Assembly (NCBI RefSeq): GCF_000024465.1
Contig: NC_014010.1
Location: 1,674,001-1,738,000 of the forward strand
Origin: Candidatus Puniceispirillum marinum IMCC1322
GTDB lineage: Bacteria > Pseudomonadota > Alphaproteobacteria > Puniceispirillales > Puniceispirillaceae
Length of the DNA stretch: 64,000 nucleotides
Direction: 5' to 3'
In this document: positions 6,731 to 19,097 of the stretch, in pieces
Layout: each line of letters starts with the position of its first letter
How positions within the stretch are numbered: position 1 is the first letter of the stretch
Notes under the pieces: generated by a model
What the model was told of the DNA's origin: nothing
The model's database searches: none
Seen by the model: the letters and a program-made list of their open reading frames with translations, nothing else
Program-made: the position numbers and the translations under genes

Positions 6731-7993
6731 TTATTCAAACCTTTGCGCAGAGTAGGCACTTAGATTTACATTTGGTCGGTGATCACAAATTAGTTGCGCC
6801 GTAAGCTCACCTGATGCTGGTGACATCATCAGTCCAAAATGAGAATGGCCAAAATTGAAATATAAACCGGGGTGATTTTCAGGCGCATCAATCATTGGCA
6901 AACTATCGGGAAATGACGGCCTACGCCCCATCCAAAAGGATACCTTTTCTTCGTTTAAACCAGGAAAGGCCGCTTTTGCTAAACGGGCAAGCCTCATCTT
7001 ATGTTGCTTCGAGGGAGGTGCGTCAGGAGGTGCAAACTCGGAATGCCCTGCAACACGCAAACCAGATTCCATAGAACTAGCGATAAATTTAGCATCAACA
7101 TCCATAACGGAATTATTGAGTTCAATGCCAGGTGCTGAATATTCAACATGATAGCCTCGTTCTGACATTAAAGGTATTTTAATAGGAAAATCGGCTAGCA
7201 GGTTGGAGCTCCATACGCCAAGACACACAACAATCCTCTCAGCTTGAAACGCTTGCTTTCCGCAATCAATTGTCCAATTCAAACCGTCTCTTCTAATATT
7301 CTTAATTTCAGCCCTAATGAATTCAGCTCCAAGTGAGCGGGCTTTTTCTGCCAAAACAGCGGCAACTCGGCCAGGCGAGAGCACGCGTCCAGTTCCCTTT
7401 ATAACAACTGCTGCTCGGAATTCAGGCCCAAGAGCTGGTTCAATTTGGGAAAGACTGTCCTGACCTATTACTTCCATATCCGCCCCTTTTGCCAAGCGAA
7501 TTTGATGATCCAATCCGTTTAATGTCGCCTTGCTACCATCGCGGAAAGCTTGAATATACAAACTTTCCGTGAGTAGTTTTTCTTCTCCAGTGCCACTTAA
7601 ATGCTTTTTAAATAATTCGATCGAGGGACTGCAAAGCTCAGCCATCGCATCCGCAGCTTCGCGAACCCGACTTTCTTGGCTTTGACGGGCAAAGTGAAGG
7701 CCCCATGGTATCATATTTAGAAAAGAGCCAGGATGTATTGAGAGGGGCTTCCTGTAACCCAGCATCAACTTTGGAACTGATTTCAAGATGTCAGGCATAG
7801 CTTGCGGTATAAAAGACCATGGTGACACAACACCGGCGTTGCCATATGACGTAGCCTGCCCCGGTTCACCTTTGTCTATCAGTTTAACTGTAACACCTCT
7901 GTGTAAAAGGGATAGAGCCGTGAAAATCCCTACAATTCCCGCCCCTAAAATCACGACAGGTGTATTTGGATCAATTTGTTGCACATTACTCAT
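6731..7993 (-). CDS. FAD-dependent D-amino-acid dehydrogenase-like oxidoreductase
   Basis: 420 residues of the DAO/DadA type. An FAD-binding Rossmann motif starts the protein (VVILGAGIVGIFTALSLL, ~13-30, with the acidic residue in KLIDKGEPG), followed by TSYGNAGVVSPWS, which is typical of DadA, and a C-terminal FAD segment (WMGRRPSFPDSLPMI...FNFGHSHFGLMMSP). The expected reaction is oxidative deamination of D-amino acids or N-substituted glycines to 2-oxoacids, passing electrons to the respiratory chain. A cytoplasmic or membrane-associated location is usual. It has the same orientation as the opine-oxidase-like operon upstream, but 511 bp with repeat copy C lie between them, so it is probably transcribed separately. 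A related substrate class is plausible. Confidence 0.85.
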   Translation of the reverse strand: MSNVQQIDPNTPVVILGAGIVGIFTALSLLHRGVTVKLIDKGEPGQATSYGNAGVVSPWSFIPQAMPDILKSVPKLMLGYRKPLSIHPGSFLNMIPWGLHFARQSQESRVREAADAMAELCSPSIELFKKHLSGTGEEKLLTESLYIQAFRDGSKATLNGLDHQIRLAKGADMEVIGQDSLSQIEPALGPEFRAAVVIKGTGRVLSPGRVAAVLAEKARSLGAEFIRAEIKNIRRDGLNWTIDCGKQAFQAERIVVCLGVWSSNLLADFPIKIPLMSERGYHVEYSAPGIELNNSVMDVDAKFIASSMESGLRVAGHSEFAPPDAPPSKQHKMRLARLAKAAFPGLNEEKVSFWMGRRPSFPDSLPMIDAPENHPGLYFNFGHSHFGLMMSPASGELTAQLICDHRPNVNLSAYSAQRFE

Positions 7994-8504: not shown

Positions 8505-9878
8505 TTAATTTATAGTGTCATGGTTAGCTATTTGTTCCAGTGTGATTGGCTTAATGGGCGAGCGAATACGATAATAGCCAATCTCAGCAGGGGACAAACC
8601 ACGCGTATCAGCGATCAGATTGACGACAGTCATCCCACAATATCGTCCCTGGCAATTACCCATACCACAGCGTGAAAAGGCTTTGAGCTGATTAGGTCCA
8701 AGGCAGCCAAGCCGTACTGCGTTGCGCACCGTGCTAGCAGTGACTTCTTCGCAGCGGCATATAATAGTTTCATCATCAGGTACGCTATACCATTTTTTGG
8801 GCTTATAAAGCCTGTCGAGAAACGCACGGATAGACCGAAAGCGCCGATGTTTACTTAGTGTTGCAGCCAGAATAGATGCTTCAACCGACTCACCTTGATC
8901 CGTCAAAACTGCCATCGCGGCAAGTTGGCCAGATAGCTGGGCAGCATCAGCACCCAGAATCCCAGCGCCATCTCCGGCAATATAAATCCCTGACTTACTA
9001 GATCGACCCATCGCATCTATATCAGGATCTAGACAGTGATTAGCCTCATTCCAACAATGCGCTAGTCCTAATGATTGAGAGAATTGGATATTAGGATGCA
9101 CACCAGCATGCACCAAAACATGCCCAGCTGTGATCTTATGCATCTTCCCACCACAAGAAAACGCGACTCTATGCTGTCCAGCCTCGCTAGTGATACTGAC
9201 ATCACTGACTGCAGTGTGGCGGCGAATACCTGCGCTTGATAGCTTGCGAAGCATGCCAGCACCTTTCAAAAGATAGGCAATAACAGTAGAATTAAGACGA
9301 AGATGGGGAAAGGCATAGAGATAATCACTGATTGTTTGGGTTTCCAACAAAGCCTTTGGCGGCGTTCCCATTTCCAGCATTTGCGTTGCTACCAAATACA
9401 ACAATGGGCCAGATCCAATGAGCACCGACTCGGCGGGAACATGCCTAGCGGTTTTCATCAGAATCTGCGCTGCCCCAACCGTCATCACGCCTGGATTTGT
9501 CCATCCGACGATCGGCATGGCACGTTCCAACGCGCCCGTAGCTAGAATAACAGCATCAAACAGGCGACTATAACTAATCTCACCAACTGACCAGGCTATT
9601 TCCCTATCTTCCGTCACCGACCAAACAGTAGCGCCCTTTATATGGGTAAGTCTTTCATTATCTGCGACAGTGTTAAAACGACGAACGAGGTCACCACCAG
9701 CGGCATAGTCACTGCCAAATATTCTTGCATCTTGAGACGCCATTTGCGCGGCATGGCGGTAAATTTGTCCACCACCCATGGACTGTTCGTCAATTAGTGT
9801 GATTTCATGATTTGTCTCAATCAACGTCAATGCTGCCATCATTCCGGCTGGGCCGGCACCGATAATCCCTACCTGCAT
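8505..9878 (-). CDS. Opine oxidase/HcnB-like FAD and [2Fe-2S] dehydrogenase subunit (alpha)
   Basis: 457 residues. Residues 1-~35 form a pyridine-nucleotide-disulphide reductase-type FAD site (GIIGAGPAGMMAALTLI), a second Rossmann fold is near residue 145-155, and residues ~370-420 form a BFD-like [2Fe-2S] domain with four Cys (CRCEEV ... CGMGNCQGRYCG). This is the layout of OoxA/HcnB/HpdA proteins, the larger subunit of heterotrimeric dehydrogenases that oxidise opines, glycine (to HCN) or D-hydroxyproline. It is the last gene of the operon, directly abutting the small ferredoxin-like subunit (0-1 bp). The substrate cannot be read from the sequence. Confidence 0.88.
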   Translation of the reverse strand: MQVGIIGAGPAGMMAALTLIETNHEITLIDEQSMGGGQIYRHAAQMASQDARIFGSDYAAGGDLVRRFNTVADNERLTHIKGATVWSVTEDREIAWSVGEISYSRLFDAVILATGALERAMPIVGWTNPGVMTVGAAQILMKTARHVPAESVLIGSGPLLYLVATQMLEMGTPPKALLETQTISDYLYAFPHLRLNSTVIAYLLKGAGMLRKLSSAGIRRHTAVSDVSITSEAGQHRVAFSCGGKMHKITAGHVLVHAGVHPNIQFSQSLGLAHCWNEANHCLDPDIDAMGRSSKSGIYIAGDGAGILGADAAQLSGQLAAMAVLTDQGESVEASILAATLSKHRRFRSIRAFLDRLYKPKKWYSVPDDETIICRCEEVTASTVRNAVRLGCLGPNQLKAFSRCGMGNCQGRYCGMTVVNLIADTRGLSPAEIGYYRIRSPIKPITLEQIANHDTIN

Positions 9879-10151
9879 TCACCCATTCCCCAACTTTGTT
9901 TGTGCCGGTTGACGTTCCACATGCATGCCATGTTCTGCCTGTGTCATACAGCCTTGCCGATTGGGACGACCATCAATAACCAAAAGGCAATCAAAACAGG
10001 TACCCATCATGCAAAACGGGCCACGTGGCAAATCGCCAACCTGCGTTTGACGAAAGTGAACCACGCCAGCTCGCACCAGAGCGGCGGCTACACTCATCCC
10101 TGGCTCAAACAGCACCTTTTCATTATCAAAATGGAAATACTGCTCAGACAT
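9879..10151 (-). CDS. Small plant-type [2Fe-2S] subunit of opine-oxidase-like dehydrogenase (HcnA/OoxC-like)
   Basis: 90 residues with a ferredoxin-like fold. Ligands appear in GPFCMMGTCFDCLLVIDG with a fourth Cys in RQGCMTQ, matching the C-x4-C-x2-C...C pattern of the small subunit in HcnABC and D-hydroxyproline dehydrogenase complexes. It relays electrons between the two flavin subunits. It overlaps the beta-subunit stop by 8 bp on one side and abuts the alpha subunit on the other, so equal expression is expected. Confidence 0.88.
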   Translation of the reverse strand: MSEQYFHFDNEKVLFEPGMSVAAALVRAGVVHFRQTQVGDLPRGPFCMMGTCFDCLLVIDGRPNRQGCMTQAEHGMHVERQPAQTKLGNG

Positions 10152-11250
10152 TGAAGCGATCCTCGCTAAAAGCGCTCAGGTCTGGTGCACTTTCCGCACC
10201 AACCAGCCAACGGCTAAGATTGCGGGAATGTGTTGCCGACAAGGTAATGCCACTGTGACAGGTAACCAGAAAAGCGCCTGGCATTGTTTTAGAATGTTGA
10301 TAGACCGGCAGACCGTCAGGCGACATCACACGCAAGGCACCCCAAGAACGTACCAGCCGAAGCTGAGCCAATTTTGGCATTATCTTAATCGCCTTGCTGG
10401 CGATGCGAGCCATCTGCGCCTGCGTTTCATTGTCGTTAAATCCAACTTCTTCTTTTGAGTCACCGATCTGGATGGCGCCTTCATTGACTTGTCGTATCGT
10501 TACTGATGGGCGGTTTATTACTGGGGGTAGCTTTTCAGTAACCAATACCTGGCCGCGTTGTGGGCGGACAAGTCCTTTAAATCCAAACATGGGGCCCAGC
10601 ACCTTTGCACCAAGTCCAGCGCACAGAACAACCTTTGCCGCACTCACCTCAAGACCCTTTTCTGTCTGCAGATGAAAGCCATCACCATTTTGGCTCACCG
10701 CCGTCAACCGTTCGCCTAGATAATGAGCCAGCCCGCGCTTTTGACAGGATTCAGCCAATGCCTGCAAAAGCTGTAAAGGATTGACATGCCCGTCATGTGG
10801 GTAAAAGGTCGCGCCGACTGTTTCACCATCAACCATCGGTTCTTCTTTTCGAATGTCTTCAGCGCTAAGCACTTCAACCGGATAGTCACCACCCAAAGCC
10901 TTTTTCAATGATTTGAACTGGTTTAGACGCTCATCCATAGCTTCAGGATCAGAAAAATATTCATATCCACCAGTTTGCTGAAGACTTACCTCGATGCCGG
11001 TGTCTTCAGTCAGATTGGCGACAAATTCAGGATATTCGCGCACTGCCATCTGTGACCAAGCTGCATAATGCGGCGCATTTATACCTTTGCCTTGCACCCA
11101 GACAAGGCCGAAATTACCACGTGAAGCGCGAAAGTCGGTATCCGAACCATCAAGACATATCACGGACTTTCCGCGACCAAGCAAGCCATGAGCAACGGAT
11201 AGGCCGACAATCCCACCACCAATGACAACAAAATCAGCCTCTGTCCGCAT
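10144..11250 (-). CDS. Opine oxidase/HcnC-like FAD oxidoreductase subunit (beta)
   Basis: 368 residues from ATG at 11250 (MRTEADFVVIGGG), chosen over an upstream Met because the FAD motif VVIGGGIVGLSVAHGLLGRG then starts in the usual position; this start overlaps the upstream ABC ATPase stop by 17 bp. The C-terminal part (SWGALRVMSPDGLPVY...TCHSGITLSATH) is the closing FAD segment of the DAO family. By homology it is the catalytic amine-oxidising subunit of the heterotrimer with the two downstream genes. Likely substrates are D-amino acids, opines or sarcosine-like secondary amines; the real one is unknown. Confidence 0.87.
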   Translation of the reverse strand: MRTEADFVVIGGGIVGLSVAHGLLGRGKSVICLDGSDTDFRASRGNFGLVWVQGKGINAPHYAAWSQMAVREYPEFVANLTEDTGIEVSLQQTGGYEYFSDPEAMDERLNQFKSLKKALGGDYPVEVLSAEDIRKEEPMVDGETVGATFYPHDGHVNPLQLLQALAESCQKRGLAHYLGERLTAVSQNGDGFHLQTEKGLEVSAAKVVLCAGLGAKVLGPMFGFKGLVRPQRGQVLVTEKLPPVINRPSVTIRQVNEGAIQIGDSKEEVGFNDNETQAQMARIASKAIKIMPKLAQLRLVRSWGALRVMSPDGLPVYQHSKTMPGAFLVTCHSGITLSATHSRNLSRWLVGAESAPDLSAFSEDRFNV

Positions 11251-12253
11251 CAACAACCTCGTTAAGGACATCAGCATCTGTCTCACGCAAACACGATGAC
11301 TGATGCAGCGCTTGTGCTTCACTCAGTGGCTTGAAACTTTGCCAGCATGCATCTTTTGCATAGGGGCACCGAGGTGCGAATTGACATCCCTGATGCGTGT
11401 TCACCGGCATCGACAGATCACCAATAATCTTTGGTATCCCGCGTTCAATAGTGGGATCAGGAATCGGCACCGCCGAAATCAGCGCTTTCGTATAAGGGTG
11501 TTTAGGATTGGTTAGAACATCTTTGGCCGAGCCTATTTCGACAGCCTGCCCAAGATACATAATCATGATCCGGTCAGCAACATTGCCCAGAATAGACAAA
11601 TCATGCGAAACATATACACATGAAAACTTACGCTCAGCAGCCAATGTTTTGATCAGCGCTAAGATGTCAGCCCTGATTGACACATCAAGCATCGATAATG
11701 GCTCATCAGCAAAAACAATGTCTGGCTCCATGACTAATGCTGCCGCAATACCAACCCGCTGACGCTCGCCGCCACTAAGCTCATGCGGGAATCTTTTCAT
11801 AAAACGATCGGGGTCAAGACCTACAGAGTGAAGAATTGAACGCACCTTATCCTGAATCACATCTTCAGGCCAAAGTTGCAACGCCCGCGGCCCTTCAGCA
11901 ACCGCATCACCTATCTGGAAACGCGGATTGAGAGACTCATAGGGATCTTGAAAAATGATCTGAACCGAACGACGAAATATCTTTTTGGCCACGTCATCCA
12001 TTGCCGCTAATGACTGACCACGATGGACAACAACACCATCAGTCGGGGATAGCAAACCAGCTGCAATCAAGCAGGTTGTGGATTTTCCACAGCCAGATTC
12101 ACCAGCAATACCAAGAATTTCATTCTCATGGATTGCCAAATTCATCGCCTGTACAGCACGAATACTTCGCGCTGGTTTGCGGGTGACAATATCACCAAGC
12201 TTACGTGGCAGGAAAAATTCCTGCGATACATTTTCGAGGCTTAGGATATCCAT
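11234..12253 (-). CDS. ABC transporter ATPase, oligopeptide/opine class (DppF-like)
   Basis: 339 residues. Walker A GESGCGKSTTC (~54-64), Q-loop in QIIFQDPYESLNPRF, signature LSGGERQRVGIAAAL, Walker B IVFADEPLSMLDVS, and H-loop VYVSHDLS are all present. The C-terminal oligopeptide-transporter extension has a Cys pattern (CQFAPRCPYAKDAC) that in DppD/F proteins binds an iron-sulphur cluster. It pairs with the other ATPase upstream, with which it overlaps by 13 bp, to energise the same permease. Confidence 0.93.
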   Translation of the reverse strand: MDILSLENVSQEFFLPRKLGDIVTRKPARSIRAVQAMNLAIHENEILGIAGESGCGKSTTCLIAAGLLSPTDGVVVHRGQSLAAMDDVAKKIFRRSVQIIFQDPYESLNPRFQIGDAVAEGPRALQLWPEDVIQDKVRSILHSVGLDPDRFMKRFPHELSGGERQRVGIAAALVMEPDIVFADEPLSMLDVSIRADILALIKTLAAERKFSCVYVSHDLSILGNVADRIMIMYLGQAVEIGSAKDVLTNPKHPYTKALISAVPIPDPTIERGIPKIIGDLSMPVNTHQGCQFAPRCPYAKDACWQSFKPLSEAQALHQSSCLRETDADVLNEVVDADRG

Positions 12254-13245
12254 GTTGTTTTTTCCTTAGCCAGTTTTGCCAGCTTCTGGCGGTCATCCGA
12301 ACGCAAACAACTTACAACATGGTTGGTGCCAGTCATCGTAAGTGCCGGAAAGGTCTCACGACAGCCATCTGCAGAAAATGGACAACGCGGTTCAAACCAG
12401 CATTTATTTTCTTCACGCATCATCACTGGAGGCGAGCCGGGAATCGAAATCAATTCCTTGCCAAGCTCGCGAATTGATGGAAATGCATTTGTTAGTCCCA
12501 TCGTATAGGGGTGAGATGGATCCTTAAAAAGATCCATTGTTGGCGCAATTTCAACAAAGCTACCGCCATACATAACGCCAATGCGCGTTGCAATTTCTGA
12601 CATAATCGCGATGTCATGAGATATGATCATCATCGAACAATGTGTCTCATTCTTGATCCGACGTAATGTCTTGAGGATTTTATCCTGAACCAGCACATCA
12701 AGGCCAGTTGTTGGCTCATCCATGATGATCAACTGTGGATCAAGCGCCAGCGCCATTGCAATCATTGCACGTTGGCGCATGCCTCCAGAAAACTGATGTG
12801 GATAGCTGTCAAAAAGGTCTTTTTGCAAACCAACACTCTCGAAAAGATCATTTACTTTGGTGCGCGCTTCCCGTTCAGACATCCGCACATGCGCGCAAAT
12901 TGCCTCGACAATCTGCGGGCCAACCTTGTAAACGGGGTTCAGTGAATTCATTGCACTTTGCGGAACCAGGGCAATCTTCTGCCAGAGGATAGATTTACGG
13001 AAATCTTCCATCGGCATCTGCAATAGTTCGTGCCCCTGAAAGTTAACCGAGTCCGCTACAACCGATCCATTCCGCGCAACCAAACGCAGTAATGCTTTGA
13101 TCAAACTGGATTTACCACAGCCGCTTTCCCCAACCACACCAAAAATTTCATTTTCCTGGAGCTGGAAAGACAGCCGGTTTACCGCGTGAATTTCTTGACC
13201 ATCCATGCGGTACGTCACGCCGAGGTTTTGTACATCAAGCAACAT
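12241..13245 (-). CDS. ABC transporter ATPase, oligopeptide/opine class (DppD-like)
   Basis: 334 residues with Walker A GESGCGKSSLI, Q-loop VPQSAMNSLNPVY, signature FSGGMRQRAMIAMAL, Walker B LIIMDEPTTGLDV and H-loop MIISHDI. The C-terminal extension again has the Cys-rich oligopeptide-transporter motif (CWFEPRCPFSADGC). It begins 2 bp after the permease stop and overlaps the second ATPase by 13 bp. Together with that ATPase and the two permeases it makes a complete five-component importer. Confidence 0.93.
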   Translation of the reverse strand: MLLDVQNLGVTYRMDGQEIHAVNRLSFQLQENEIFGVVGESGCGKSSLIKALLRLVARNGSVVADSVNFQGHELLQMPMEDFRKSILWQKIALVPQSAMNSLNPVYKVGPQIVEAICAHVRMSEREARTKVNDLFESVGLQKDLFDSYPHQFSGGMRQRAMIAMALALDPQLIIMDEPTTGLDVLVQDKILKTLRRIKNETHCSMMIISHDIAIMSEIATRIGVMYGGSFVEIAPTMDLFKDPSHPYTMGLTNAFPSIRELGKELISIPGSPPVMMREENKCWFEPRCPFSADGCRETFPALTMTGTNHVVSCLRSDDRQKLAKLAKEKTTWIS

Positions 13246-13247
13246 CG

Positions 13248-14147
13248 CTAGCGTGTCTCCCTCAAGCGTGGGTTGGCATATTCCTCATAGGCACGGCTAA
13301 TAAAGACAAGCGATGTCACCAGTGCAACAATGGAAATGGCTGGCGGCAGGAACCACCACCATGCAACACGCGTCTTACCCGAAAGCCAAAGCTCATAGAG
13401 CATTCCGCCCCAACTGATTGTATCGCCATCGCCAAAGCCAAGGAAACTGGCACTAGCCTCGGTCACGATCGACCAGGCAATATTGAAAGATGTATAAAGT
13501 AGCAACAACGGCAATACATTCGGCAGGATGTGACGGTAAATTATCCGCAGATGGCTACATCCACGTGCACGCGCCGCAGTCACAAACTGACGCTGTTTAA
13601 TCGAAATTGTCTGCGCTCTAATAACCCGTGCCGAGGTACGCCAAACAATCAACGCGATGGCAAGGATAACAAATTCAATTTTCCGTCCAAAAAGTGAGAT
13701 CAGGATAATCACAAAAGGCAGGAAGGGCATACCATAAAGAATGTCAGTACAGCGCATTAAAAATTCATCAACTAGTCCACCATAATAGCCAGCAATCAAG
13801 CCGATATTTGCCCCAATCATGATCGAGATGAAGCCAGAAATCAGGCCAATCATCACCGTTGTCCGCGTTGCCATAATCATCTGCGATAACAGATCATAAC
13901 CAAGATGTGTTGTCCCTAATGGGAACTGCATTGACGGACCCTGTAACATGGCCAACTGGCCAGTCTGTGCGTCATACTGCATTTCCCAGACGGGATAAGG
14001 CGCGATCAACGGTGCCAATAATGCAACGGCAAAGAAGAACGCAACGACCCAAAAGCCAATATACCCATAGGTATTTGAGGTCATGATTTTGTACTGCCTG
14101 TAAAGTGTACTAAAAACACTTCGCAGTCGGTTGCCTATTTTGTGCAT
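13248..14147 (-). CDS. ABC transporter permease, DppC-like
   Basis: 299 residues with about six membrane helices. The first is at ~28-52 (GFWVVAFFFAVALLAPLIAPY), followed by the periplasmic segment LGTTHLGYDLLSQMI typical of DppC, and the EAA loop (AARARGCSHLRIIYRHILPN, ~190-209) that docks the ATPases. The N-terminus is cytoplasmic. The gene is one base away from the enolase-superfamily gene upstream and 2 bp from the DppD-like ATPase downstream, so all are translated from one message. Confidence 0.92.
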   Translation of the reverse strand: MHKIGNRLRSVFSTLYRQYKIMTSNTYGYIGFWVVAFFFAVALLAPLIAPYPVWEMQYDAQTGQLAMLQGPSMQFPLGTTHLGYDLLSQMIMATRTTVMIGLISGFISIMIGANIGLIAGYYGGLVDEFLMRCTDILYGMPFLPFVIILISLFGRKIEFVILAIALIVWRTSARVIRAQTISIKQRQFVTAARARGCSHLRIIYRHILPNVLPLLLLYTSFNIAWSIVTEASASFLGFGDGDTISWGGMLYELWLSGKTRVAWWWFLPPAISIVALVTSLVFISRAYEEYANPRLRETR

Positions 14148-14148
14148 C

Positions 14149-15279
14149 CTAACTCTCCAACCTCGCTAAACAATAATTATCAATCTTGTCGCGGTTTATC
14201 TCGACGCCAAGGCCAGGTTTATCTGGCAGAGCGACAGTGCCACTTGTTTTCCAATCGGCAAAATCTGTGATGTCATCTGACGTCCGCTGAACCGACATAA
14301 AGGCGTGGCCAAAATCAACCACATTGGGGGTCACACACCCCAGATGCAAGGCAGCCGCTTGGGTTATGCCAAGTTCAATCATGCTATTCATCATGATTTT
14401 GACGCCATGTTTCGCTGCCAGTTTCGTAATTGCTAACCCCTCGGCAAGACCACCATTTTTTGAAATTTTGACGCTGAAAATATCGGCGCCTTTTACCTTA
14501 ATAATCTGCTCGGCATCAGCAAAACGTTTCAGGCTCTCATCAACCGAAATAGGATTAGGTGACAAGGCGCGTAACTCATGAATACGGCCATAGTCATCAG
14601 CAGCGATTGGTTGCTCAACTAGTGCCAGTGGCAAATCAATTGTATGGCGCATGAATGTACTGGCCTCTTCAAAGCTCCACCCTTGGTTTGCATCAACCAT
14701 CAGGCGCGCATTTTCAGGCAGTTTTTCATAAACATCATGCACGCGCGCAATATCTTCATCCACGGGGTTGCTACCCATCTTCAACATGAATGTGCGATAA
14801 CCAAGATCGTATTTTGGGGTTATCACATCCATATCCTGTGCAGACGTTCCGGACGATGTTGGCCACAGGCTCGGCAAAGACTGATGATGCTTTTCACCCA
14901 GCATTTTCCATACAGGTATATCGGTCAGTCGACCCTTGAGATCGTATGCGGCAACATTGATGGCGCTTTTCGTGGCACCGCACAAACCTGCCAGAGAAGC
15001 TCCCGAAATCAGATCTCCCAACATCGTGCCAGGCAGACTCTTAACGCCACTATCGGAGAAATGATCCATGACATCATCACAAGTATCACCAGTGAACATG
15101 ACACCGCCAGGGTCGGCCTCACCCCATCCTGAGACGCCATTAGCCAGCAATTCCACCACCACAACCTCGCTATGCGTCGTAGTAGGATAAATCTTGGAAA
15201 GGTAATATGGATTAATCAGCGGAATGCTAACCCGGTAGACTCGTACAGCTTCAATAGCGATTTGATCAACTTCTGTCAT
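14149..15279 (-). CDS. Enolase-superfamily (MR/MLE-type) enzyme
   Basis: 376 residues: capping domain ~8-130, then a TIM-like barrel. Metal ligands D196 (VDANQ), E222 (VEQP) and D247 (SVDES) and the barrel Lys K271 (SVKISKNGG) are visible. The muconate-lactonising subgroup normally has K-x-K at the end of the second strand; here it reads FMLKMG, so the second Lys (K167) is kept but the first position is Met (M165). Members of this group abstract an alpha proton to epimerise, dehydrate or cycloisomerise carboxylates. Being inserted between the two permease genes (4-bp overlap, 1-bp gap), it almost certainly acts on the transported compound, for example by converting an L-form to the D-form used by the oxidase; this last step is inference. 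Confidence 0.82.
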   Translation of the reverse strand: MTEVDQIAIEAVRVYRVSIPLINPYYLSKIYPTTTHSEVVVVELLANGVSGWGEADPGGVMFTGDTCDDVMDHFSDSGVKSLPGTMLGDLISGASLAGLCGATKSAINVAAYDLKGRLTDIPVWKMLGEKHHQSLPSLWPTSSGTSAQDMDVITPKYDLGYRTFMLKMGSNPVDEDIARVHDVYEKLPENARLMVDANQGWSFEEASTFMRHTIDLPLALVEQPIAADDYGRIHELRALSPNPISVDESLKRFADAEQIIKVKGADIFSVKISKNGGLAEGLAITKLAAKHGVKIMMNSMIELGITQAAALHLGCVTPNVVDFGHAFMSVQRTSDDITDFADWKTSGTVALPDKPGLGVEINRDKIDNYCLARLES

Positions 15280-16268
15280 CTCTGATCCATCCCTGATTTA
15301 GACACTTTGATGCGTGGATCCAGATAGCAATAGGCGATATCCGTCAACAGGTTCAGCGTGATTACCAGAACGGCAAGCATTAGAAACGTTCCCTGTGCCA
15401 CCGGATAATCATGCGATGCTGCCGCTTCCACCATCAATTGCCCCATTCCTGGCCAGGAAAATAGCGCTTCAACCACGACCTGACCACCAATAGCAAAACC
15501 CACCATGATCGATCCAAGTGTCACCACGGCAAGCAAGGCGTTTCGCGCGGCATGTTTGATCATAACCACTCGTGAGGTCAGACCCTTAGCGCGCGCTAAC
15601 TCGATAAAGTCGCTTCCAAGAATTTCCAGCATGGAATCCCGCATCACCAACATCGGCGTTGTAATATAGCAAAGGCTAACCGTAATAGTGGGTAACACGA
15701 TCCGTTCCCAAAATCCGGACATCATTAACATGTCCAATACGCCGTCAGGGCGTTGACCTGGTGGATACATTCCCCCCGTTGGAAATAGACCAAGATTATA
15801 GCTAAGCAACATCAAAAGCAGTAATCCGGTGACAAAAGGCGGCGCTGCCTGAAACACCAGTCCAGAGACAGTGCCAATGACGTCAATAGCGCCATTACGA
15901 TGCCACGCCATCAAAATGCCTGCACCGATACCAATTACGAGGGTAAAACACATGCCTGCAGACATTAGCAAAACTGTATTCCAGAACCGGTATTGAAGAA
16001 TGTCCATCACTGGTTGAGACGTAACAAAAGAGCGTCCCCAGTCAAAGGTAACAAGATTTTTCAGATAGATCAGATATTGGTGCCAAAGCGATTTATCGAG
16101 ACCAAACGCTTCTTTCATACGCTTTTGCACAGATTCATCCATGGCCGGACTGATTACCTGCATAGTAGCGTCACCTGGCAACAACCGGAAAATAATGAAC
16201 AAAATGGATGCAACGGCAAAAATCGTAAGGATTGTGTAAAAAAGCCGCCTAAGGAGATATTCAGCCAC
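15276..16268 (-). CDS. ABC transporter permease, DppB-like
   Basis: 330 residues from a GTG at 16268 (VAEYLLRRLFYTIL), preceded by GGAG at good distance; the upstream Met at 16349 would add 27 residues not found in the family. DppB features: first helix at ~10-30, the segment LPGDA after it, a long periplasmic loop with GLDKSLWHQYLIYLKNL, and the EAA loop (LARAKGLTSRVVMIKHAARN). About six membrane helices. It pairs with the DppC-like permease, but the enolase-type gene is placed between them, an order not found in standard dpp/opp operons. Confidence 0.9.
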   Translation of the reverse strand: MAEYLLRRLFYTILTIFAVASILFIIFRLLPGDATMQVISPAMDESVQKRMKEAFGLDKSLWHQYLIYLKNLVTFDWGRSFVTSQPVMDILQYRFWNTVLLMSAGMCFTLVIGIGAGILMAWHRNGAIDVIGTVSGLVFQAAPPFVTGLLLLMLLSYNLGLFPTGGMYPPGQRPDGVLDMLMMSGFWERIVLPTITVSLCYITTPMLVMRDSMLEILGSDFIELARAKGLTSRVVMIKHAARNALLAVVTLGSIMVGFAIGGQVVVEALFSWPGMGQLMVEAAASHDYPVAQGTFLMLAVLVITLNLLTDIAYCYLDPRIKVSKSGMDQR

Positions 16269-16387
16269 GCTCGGGTCTCCAGAAATATTTGTTATAAAGT
16301 ATGAATTAATAAATATGTAGTCTGGGAAGGCAGGAGACAAATCTGCCACCTGCCCAACACATATTTTGACAACTACGCTTCCCGTGA

Positions 16388-18016
16388 TTAGCCCGGGTAA
16401 TGCAGTGTGCCGGAGGAATCCCAGCTATAACCAGCTTTGGACAAGATATCTTTGGCCAGCTTAACATTATTTGCCCGTGGCTTGATGGCAGCTTCATGCC
16501 AATACTCATTAGCAGGCGCGATGGTCGAACCACCATTTGTGGCAAAGCCCGACATAATCACTTCACGAATGACATCCCGCGGCACGAGGTGATCGACAGC
16601 CTCACGGAAGGCGCGATCCTGCAACGGACCACGCGTATGGTTGAACATAAAGCCGTACCAACCATGACTTGCATAACCCTTACCAACTATACCGTTGATC
16701 TTGTTAAGATCCTGCACCAATGTTGGCTTGAGAATATAGCGCGTACGGTCACATTCACCTGCCTCGATGGCTGCTGCCATCGCATCATGGCTGCCATAGG
16801 TAATCCGGATCATGCCCGCACATTTTGGCTTGGCAAAATGCTGATCAAAGGCTGAAACCTTAAGCTCCTTACCGCGATCCCAATAGTCGAACCTGAATGG
16901 CCCACTTCCAATTGGGTTGTCATTGGCAAAGTTTAGAACATCGTCAACACCCGCTTTTTCTGGAATGTCCTTCCAGATATGCTGTGGGATGATGAAAATT
17001 TGCGCAAAGAAGTTGATCATCAAAGGCGCATGAGGCTCAGACAGCTTGATACGCATGCTGTTAGAACCAGTAATCGACATATCTTCAAATTTTTCCAAAG
17101 ATGAGATAAAGAATGGCGCCTTCCACTTTTTATAATACTCAAAAGTGAATTTGACATCTTCGATGGTTACAGGATTGCCATCATGGAATTTCATTCCATC
17201 ACGCAACACAATATCAATGGTTGTGTTATCAACAGCTTTAACCGATGTCGCTGCCCATGGCACCAATTCACCATTCGGTCCAACTTGAATCAAACGGTCA
17301 TAGATAGTCCGAAGTTCTTTAAACTCGTTTGAGTCCGTAACACTTACTGGGTTTAGGTTTTTCAGCGCAGATGTCTGACCATTGCGGACATAGCCGTCAC
17401 CTGATTTGACAGACATGTTCAAATCAGTCCACAAGCTACCAATTCCTTCACCAAGCTGAGGCACAACGCCATCAAGACGATCTTCACGATAAGCATTGGT
17501 CATGCTGGGGTGAACAATAGGAGATGCGGCCACGTCTTCATATAGCTTCCGCTGCATCGCTTTAACGATTGTGCGGCGCTTTTCCACATCCATCTCTTTT
17601 TGCTGCATATCGCCCATTTCATTGATCGATGAGTTGTTATAACCCCATTTGTTATAGTTGCCATCTGTGTGGAACATCATCCGGGTAAAGGTTTCAGGAT
17701 CAACACGGTTCGCACGTCCAGTCCAGCGGACGATGAACATATCAAAATCTTTCTCCTGAAACACCTTGTTAATGCCCATATTGTAATCTTCGGCGGCAAG
17801 TGTCACATCCCAGCCGATTGATTTACAGGCTTGGGCGATCAACCGACCCATTTCTGGACGAACCGGATCAAAGCTAGCATTCGAAGTCAGTAGGTTCATA
17901 GGTTCCACCGGCTTACCTGCGGCCCATGCAAACTTCGCCATGGGAATAGTTGCCGCAGCAACGCCCAGACTTGTTGAGGCCTTCAAGAAAGACCGTTTAG
18001 AATAATCAATTGTCAT
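16388..18016 (-). CDS. Peptide/opine-class solute-binding protein (SBP family 5), apparently circularly permuted
   Basis: 542 residues from ATG at 18016, chosen because AGGGGAGG lies 6 bp upstream. The N-terminus carries a Tat-like export signal (SKRSFLKAS then AAATIPMAKFAWA). The order of the mature protein is unusual. Residues ~35-205 look like the C-terminal lobe of family 5 binding proteins (NLLTSN, IGWDVTL, DFDMFIVRW, DPETF, KRRTIVKAMQRKLYED). Residues ~215-542 look like the N-terminal lobe (IYDRLIQVGPNGELVPW, LRDGMKFHDGNPVTIEDVKF, NPIGSGPFRF) and end with LAKDILSKAGY...GTLHYPG, the point where normal proteins continue into that C-lobe. It is the first gene of the operon and should deliver the substrate to the DppBCDF-like importer. 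Confidence 0.85.
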   Translation of the reverse strand: MTIDYSKRSFLKASTSLGVAAATIPMAKFAWAAGKPVEPMNLLTSNASFDPVRPEMGRLIAQACKSIGWDVTLAAEDYNMGINKVFQEKDFDMFIVRWTGRANRVDPETFTRMMFHTDGNYNKWGYNNSSINEMGDMQQKEMDVEKRRTIVKAMQRKLYEDVAASPIVHPSMTNAYREDRLDGVVPQLGEGIGSLWTDLNMSVKSGDGYVRNGQTSALKNLNPVSVTDSNEFKELRTIYDRLIQVGPNGELVPWAATSVKAVDNTTIDIVLRDGMKFHDGNPVTIEDVKFTFEYYKKWKAPFFISSLEKFEDMSITGSNSMRIKLSEPHAPLMINFFAQIFIIPQHIWKDIPEKAGVDDVLNFANDNPIGSGPFRFDYWDRGKELKVSAFDQHFAKPKCAGMIRITYGSHDAMAAAIEAGECDRTRYILKPTLVQDLNKINGIVGKGYASHGWYGFMFNHTRGPLQDRAFREAVDHLVPRDVIREVIMSGFATNGGSTIAPANEYWHEAAIKPRANNVKLAKDILSKAGYSWDSSGTLHYPG

Positions 18017-18164
18017 TATATTCCTCCCCTTGCTTTTCGAAACCATTCGAAAAGACGGTTATCGATTGTCTCAATGTATGGCGCTTAGTCATGCATTCTT
18101 GACTATCAGATGTGTTTTTAATAAATTCAATTTAATAATTTTGCTATATCTATAGATTTTATTA
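18017..18164. promoter_or_regulatory. Divergent control region between binding-protein operon and LysR gene
   Basis: 148 bp, very A/T-rich toward the LysR gene. A perfect 10-bp palindrome ATCTATAGAT lies at 18148-18157, immediately before the LysR start, where autoregulatory sites of LysR proteins are often found. The arrangement (regulator divergent from its target operon) is the classical LysR plan, so both promoters are expected here. The assignment of the palindrome as the operator is inference. Confidence 0.5.
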
Positions 18165-19097
18165 ATGATAACGATACAACAACTTCGCTTTTTTAATGCT
18201 GTAATGAAGTTCGGCTCCTTGTCTCAAGCAGCGGCAGCTGTAAACCGAACGCAACCAGCCGTATCTTCGGGCATCAAGACGCTTGAAGATATGCTTGACC
18301 TGACACTTTTTGAGCGCACGGGTGGTAAACTTGTCCCGACGGCTGAAGCGCATTTCCTCTTGGAACGAAGTGAAGACCTAATTAACAGGCTGGATGTTAC
18401 CGAGGAATTACTAACCACAGTTAGAAAAGGTACCGTTGGTGATTTGCGCATTGCCTGTCTGCCATCGGCAGCGCAATTTTTGATGCCCAGGATATTAGCT
18501 AACTATATTGCTGAACGCCCTGACGTCAAAATTTCTTTCATGGCACGCACTTCACCAACCACTCATGAATTGATTGCATCGCAGCAATATGACCTAGGTC
18601 TAGCTGAACCGCGGCGCGATCTTGCTGGCGAGTCCTATTTCATCGAAGAATATAAACTGCCTGGTTTTCTGGCTATCAATGCCAATATAAAGTTGGCCAA
18701 TCAGAAGACCATTACGCCGCAGGATCTTGATGGAATGCCCTTTGTTGGTCTTTACGGCGACCATTATACAACCAAGCAGATTAAAAACACTGTCGAACAA
18801 TATGGTGGAAAATTTTTCCAGCGCGTTGATTTGCAAACGGCGATTTCCAGCCTCCTTTTTGTCGAGCGCAACATTGGTTACTCCTTTGTTGACTCACTCA
18901 CGAAGTCAAGCTACGAGCTCATCAATTCATCGCAAAAAAACATAGTTTTCTATCCATTTACGCTTGAGCACGGTGTCCGAGTAGCGATGTTGGTTCCCAA
19001 ATTTCGACTTCGATCAGCCCTTGCCGATTCTCTGAAAGTGGTTGTGCGTGAAGCAATCGTCTCAATGGGGGGTGTGGCTGTTCCAGACGCTTTTTAA
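18165..19097 (+). CDS. LysR-family transcriptional regulator
   Basis: 310 residues. Residues 1-60 form the winged helix-turn-helix (QLRFFNAVMKFGSLSQAAAAVNRTQPAVSSGIKTLEDML), and ~90-300 the two-lobed effector-binding domain (GDLRIACLPSAAQFLMPRIL...). It resembles the opine-catabolism regulators NocR/OccR in general style, though that is by impression. Divergent from the transporter/oxidase operon with a 148-bp gap, it most likely activates that operon in response to the imported compound or its product. Repeat copy B follows it. Confidence 0.9.
   Translation: MITIQQLRFFNAVMKFGSLSQAAAAVNRTQPAVSSGIKTLEDMLDLTLFERTGGKLVPTAEAHFLLERSEDLINRLDVTEELLTTVRKGTVGDLRIACLPSAAQFLMPRILANYIAERPDVKISFMARTSPTTHELIASQQYDLGLAEPRRDLAGESYFIEEYKLPGFLAINANIKLANQKTITPQDLDGMPFVGLYGDHYTTKQIKNTVEQYGGKFFQRVDLQTAISSLLFVERNIGYSFVDSLTKSSYELINSSQKNIVFYPFTLEHGVRVAMLVPKFRLRSALADSLKVVVREAIVSMGGVAVPDAF

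Follow-up and report, generated by a model that had tools for sequence, protein, structure and literature searches.

We find that the open reading frame at positions 16388–18016 on the minus strand of the window, by which we mean the whole 64,000-nucleotide stretch of DNA analysed here, encodes a circularly permuted solute-binding protein (SBP) of family 5. That the protein is permuted is all but certain. The reading that we favor, at a probability of roughly 80%, is that the protein is a functional cluster C receptor that was permuted once, long ago, and that feeds the DppBCDF-type importer encoded downstream. The frame is open from position 18046 (552 codons), and the ATG at 18016, which agrees with the start of a near relative (L035), gives a protein of 542 aa in a genome that consists of a single contig of 2,753,527 bp. 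By eye, the first codons (17921–18016, minus strand) appear to specify a signal peptide with a Tat-like SKRSFLK motif, a hydrophobic stretch and a likely cleavage site between AKFAWA and AGKP; the match to the Tat-signal model TIGR01409 was weak (13.5 bits, under the 16.7-bit cut-off).

The Pfam profile of the family (PF00496, SBP_bac_5) gives the protein a whole-length score of 206.1 bits, well above the curated cut-off of 32.4 bits, and it does so in two stretches whose order is reversed: profile positions 289–367 align to residues 51–131 (window 17896–17654), and positions 1–286 align to residues 260–548 (window 17269–16403). The single co-linear match with the N-part ahead of the C-part, which was obtained for all 44 canonical controls, was not found, and for this reason the protein is filed as a permuted variant rather than as an ordinary member of SBP_bac_5. 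No other Pfam family matched, and the sequence features of the cluster B (type I) sugar-binding proteins are absent. A profile HMM built from 14 canonical SBPs placed the blocks more precisely, with canonical positions 362–494 at residues 57–193 (17468–17878, 46 bits) and canonical positions 29–354 at residues 215–548 (16403–17404, 186 bits), both on the minus strand and separated by a junction of residues 194–214 (17405–17467) at which the ancestral C-terminus meets the ancestral N-terminus. Comparison with sequences in the PDB gave the same picture, as the N-part of normal SBPs aligned to residues ~229–546 and their C-part to residues ~57–206. When searched alone, residues 44–210 matched the last ~130 residues of OppA-type chains, the best match being Bacillus subtilis OppA 387–516 (E 2.6e-6). 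The end points given in the initial annotation were correct, since NLLTSN occurs close to where the mature protein begins and GYSWDSSGTLHYPG forms the final residues ahead of the stop codon. The possibility that the first ~205 residues are an unrelated domain was rejected, as both the canonical HMM and the search with residues 44–210 assign this region to the C-terminal part of family 5, in agreement with the structural results below.

For the permuted protein, modeled by AlphaFold2 with 26 relatives, the usual bilobed family 5 fold is predicted (pLDDT 88.4, pTM 0.84), with most of both blocks near or over 90. Sequential structure alignment superposed residues ~213–552 of the model onto the first ~350 residues of AppA, YliB, NikZ and DppA, with a Z-score of 25.0 for AppA (rmsd 5.9 over 332 residues) and 24.0 for YliB (rmsd 2.5 over 316 residues); the N-part of HbpA2 (3tpa) likewise matched residues 218–552. 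Coverage of this one part of the chain is the outcome that a permuted chain must give in an alignment of this kind. The first block folded on its own gave a low-confidence model (pLDDT 69.9), as expected for half a domain, and this model matched the C-terminal region of family 5 (1dpp 336–470) at a high rmsd, which lends weak support. The cut falls inside lobe III, at canonical position ~350–362, and not between the lobes; this places it near DppA residues 346–352, which we take to lie within the limits of lobe III. The order of C-lobe before N-lobe that was initially proposed thus holds for the sequence blocks in the Pfam, PDB and HMM comparisons, but is loose wording for the lobes themselves. 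The junction makes lobe I continuous, and lobe III is divided between the two new ends of the chain.

The same reversed order was present when relatives were inspected. A full-length relative of 93% identity comes from another genus of the same family, and full-length relatives elsewhere in the class have 72, 58, 47 and ~30% identity. Further full-length members are found at 54–91% identity in metagenome-assembled genomes labelled alpha-, gamma- and deltaproteobacteria and SAR324, and at 24–34% on plasmids of rhizobia, Roseomonas, Ketogulonicigenium, Maritalea and haloarchaea. Where annotated, these proteins are named merely 'ABC transporter substrate-binding protein'. All 35 distinct permuted proteins that we aligned share the reversed order and a common cut, the second block ending at canonical position 346–364 (median 349) and the first block starting at a median of 362 (range 308–380), with low first-block HMM scores (16–21 bits) in the most divergent members. 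The 44 canonical controls are without exception in normal order: the block profiles place the start of the C block at 70–85% of the length in each of them, with the N block ahead of it. A divergent permuted branch represented by L032 (1405–3309) and L034 (1411–3276) has ~40 additional residues behind the signal peptide; its C-terminal tail is also longer and ends in GWAGIKMVGG and TWGGLKMLGG, respectively.

In a survey of 385 alphaproteobacterial genomes, in which the best three candidates per genome were scored and the permuted count is therefore a lower bound, we found at least 13 full-length permuted matches in 12 genomes including the window's own (E ≤ 1e-188), and one further permuted match ended by a contig end (E 1e-99). 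Canonical proteins scored no better than 3e-59 and matched over the N-part only, and no intermediates with duplicated blocks were seen among these candidates. In a phylum-wide profile sample, again with the best three candidates per genome, only the window's own genome appeared at E ≤ 1e-60, which suggests that the clade is patchy. In a maximum-likelihood tree of the re-ordered sequences, a branch with a support of 75 sets all permuted rows apart, and when the long-branched Natrialba row (L058) is left out the support for the remaining 34 of the 35 rows is 98. Together with the shared cut point, the tree supports a single origin of the permuted clade, within the certainty that its long branches allow.

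We suggest that one ancient circular permutation of a gene for a cluster C periplasmic SBP, probably by duplication plus truncation, gave rise to the clade. A short linker would have fused the old C- and N-termini, both of which lie in lobe I, and new termini would have opened in the lobe III loop at canonical position ~350–362. The resulting chain would still fold as a bilobed Venus-flytrap and trap its ligand between the lobes. Alternatively, the protein could be a chimera with two parents, in which the C block of a different family 5 gene was fused ahead of a C-terminally truncated SBP. The low score of the C block relative to the N block with the canonical HMM would fit such an origin, and the authors of the study on TpMglB-2 raise such an origin for their own protein as well (PMC4990184). 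Against this, the two blocks meet near one canonical position, with the N block ending at ~349 and the C block starting at ~362, so that there is hardly any overlap or loss, and the scores of the two blocks against the 44 canonical proteins correlate positively (Spearman 0.50, p 6e-4), although this is a weak test. We therefore regard a chimeric origin as rather unlikely and favor permutation of a single gene.

The permuted SBP gene leads an operon on the minus strand. It is followed by genes for a DppB/NikB-type permease (15276–16349), an enolase-superfamily (MR/MLE) enzyme (14149–15279), a DppC/NikC-type permease (13248–14147), an OppD/DppD-type ATPase (12241–13245), an OppF/DppF-type ATPase (11234–12253), a FAD amino-acid oxidase subunit with a DAO fold that resembles OoxB and HcnC (10144–11322), a small [2Fe-2S] subunit (Fer2_4; 9879–10151) and an OoxA/HcnB-like Pyr_redox_2/BFD [2Fe-2S] subunit (8505–9878). 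A LysR-type regulator is encoded divergently on the plus strand (18165–19097), and genes of this type adjoin the cassette in many relatives. The order from lysR to the Pyr_redox/BFD gene is kept across phyla and is shared by most close-subfamily relatives with contigs of sufficient length; in the cassette of L037 the enolase gene was not recognised. In relatives at 71–77% identity, the receptor and the permeases are the best conserved part of the cassette (~70–81%), as compared with ~35–51% for the enzymes. Haloarchaeal and rhizobial members likewise lead operons of the order SBP-permease-permease-ATPase-ATPase. As is usual for cluster C, the protein is encoded with DppBC-type permeases and DppDF-type ATPases.

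The domain content of the dehydrogenase is that of the heterotrimeric opine, glycine and D-imino-acid oxidases. As in the cassettes for opine oxidase and D-hydroxyproline-type dehydrogenases, an OoxB-like, a [2Fe-2S] and an OoxA-like gene occur together, here after the importer; unlike those cassettes, this one has an enolase-superfamily gene between its permease genes. The enolase subgroup concerned normally has a K-x-K motif on strand 2. The protein encoded at 14149–15279 has K-x-G instead, a change that is invariant in the 14 homologues compared, and the strand-6 Lys is kept, which possibly indicates one-base chemistry. With the model for cis-3-hydroxy-L-proline dehydratase it scored 126 bits, where the cut-off is 500, and specificity for hydroxyproline is at this stage no more than a lead. 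Past the last gene of the cassette, and likewise on the minus strand, a D-amino-acid dehydrogenase-like FAD protein is encoded (6731–7993); in the relatives it was not identified as a distinct component of the cassette.

Across lineages the permuted SBP is the only SBP of its cassette, and it is therefore most likely the importer's own receptor; we consider it very probable that it works as such and hands its ligand to the DppBCDF-type importer whose genes directly follow its own. It could instead have been repurposed for a role outside transport, for example as a sensor or scavenger, while the importer uses another SBP. Some family 5 SBPs do have other roles, and three canonical family 5 SBPs in the genome might serve the importer. 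Yet none of these is part of the cassette, and the permuted protein accompanies the permeases in different phyla, with a degree of conservation as high as theirs, so we hold a non-transporting role to be improbable. Chance or an assembly or gene-calling artefact is rejected outright, as the frame has no interruption, the genome is a single contig, and 35 distinct proteins whose genomes were assembled independently show the same order and cut. The question, raised in the initial annotation, of why an operon would keep a permuted receptor beside an opine-type importer is in part answered if the permuted protein, the sole SBP of a cassette conserved as a unit, is, as seems most likely, the receptor of that importer.

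In DppA, Asp408 contacts the N-terminus of the ligand (PMC3295651), and the loop that holds this residue reads GDxxDP in many canonical peptide binders. The permuted SBP has GRANRVDP where the DppA type has GDNGDP, and lacks the counterpart of Asp408. Arg114 in this loop (WTGRANRVDPE; 17705–17707, minus strand) is invariant in alignment A1. A lengthened loop with an arginine, of the form x-x-x-R-x-D/E-P and usually GRxxRxDP, is found in 33 of the 35 permuted proteins, the exceptions being two from haloarchaea (L055 and L058). HbpA2 of Haemophilus parasuis also has an Arg at the Asp408 position (PMC3295651) but is of normal block order, and the loop arginine is thus not tied to the permutation. 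Judged from its sequence, the loop argues against the amine of an ordinary dipeptide as the ligand. Based on the neighbouring genes, the cargo is most likely opine-like or cyclic imino-acid-like. An N-substituted amino acid or a derivative of hydroxyproline or proline would be a candidate, which the enolase-superfamily enzyme and the three-subunit FAD/[2Fe-2S] dehydrogenase could then process in the cytoplasm. Distant members keep the importer, but the enzymes encoded nearby differ and include hydantoinase/oxoprolinase, M20 and M28 peptidases, Asp/Glu racemase, creatininase and D-aminoacylase; the clade as a whole therefore probably has no single cargo. What its importers carry appears to be modified or cyclic amino-acid compounds that differ from branch to branch.

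Tat-like signals (RR/KR-x-F-L) were found under a strict rule in 20 of 31 bacterial permuted rows and in 8 of 44 canonical ones, a contrast for which the Fisher p of 8e-5 is overstated because the rows are related. Most of the eight canonical cases are doubtful, and by eye nearly all of the close permuted subfamily is Tat-like. In the haloarchaeal proteins L052, L055, L056 and L058, a lipobox-like Cys comes after the Tat-like signal (e.g., LALAGCLGG), which would put the site of membrane tethering on lobe III instead of lobe I. It is conceivable, and we put it forward only tentatively since we think it doubtful, that the permutation has a function, is not neutral, and defines a distinct receptor class, 'cluster Cc', marked by a lobe III N-terminus, Tat-type signals and the loop arginine. 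If so, these receptors would fold before export, be tethered via the other lobe (in haloarchaea as lipoproteins), and dock or move differently from canonical family 5 receptors.

With DppA, OppA, NikA, AppA and AccA of cluster C the protein shares homology over both blocks, the predicted bilobed fold and a DppBCDF-type operon; it differs from them in the reversed blocks, the termini in lobe III and a loop of the GRxxRxDP rather than the GDxxDP type. A natural circular permutation has been described for TpMglB-2 (Tp0684) of Treponema, a cluster B glucose-binding protein whose 'cluster Bc' design keeps ligand binding, fold and closure and has spread over related species (PMC4990184). Both are natural permutations of an ABC-importer binding protein found across related species, but TpMglB-2 belongs to a sugar-binding family of a different fold class, with another cut site and a fourth hinge crossing, and represents an unrelated event. 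The initial statement that no permutation of this kind had been described thus stands for family 5 within the open-access literature, in which we found none (an earlier description elsewhere is possible), but not for binding proteins in general. As a second, independent case, the family 5 clade makes permutation comparable across fold classes.

Family 5 is a large receptor family of bacterial importers, and the solved or annotated members that we met are all treated as co-linear; profile searches register the permuted SBP as two partial matches. The permuted SBP is very probably an old working design shared by many bacteria and salt-loving archaea, and the clade, which spans proteobacteria and haloarchaea, offers a natural experiment on how binding proteins fold, are exported and tethered, and close their lobes.
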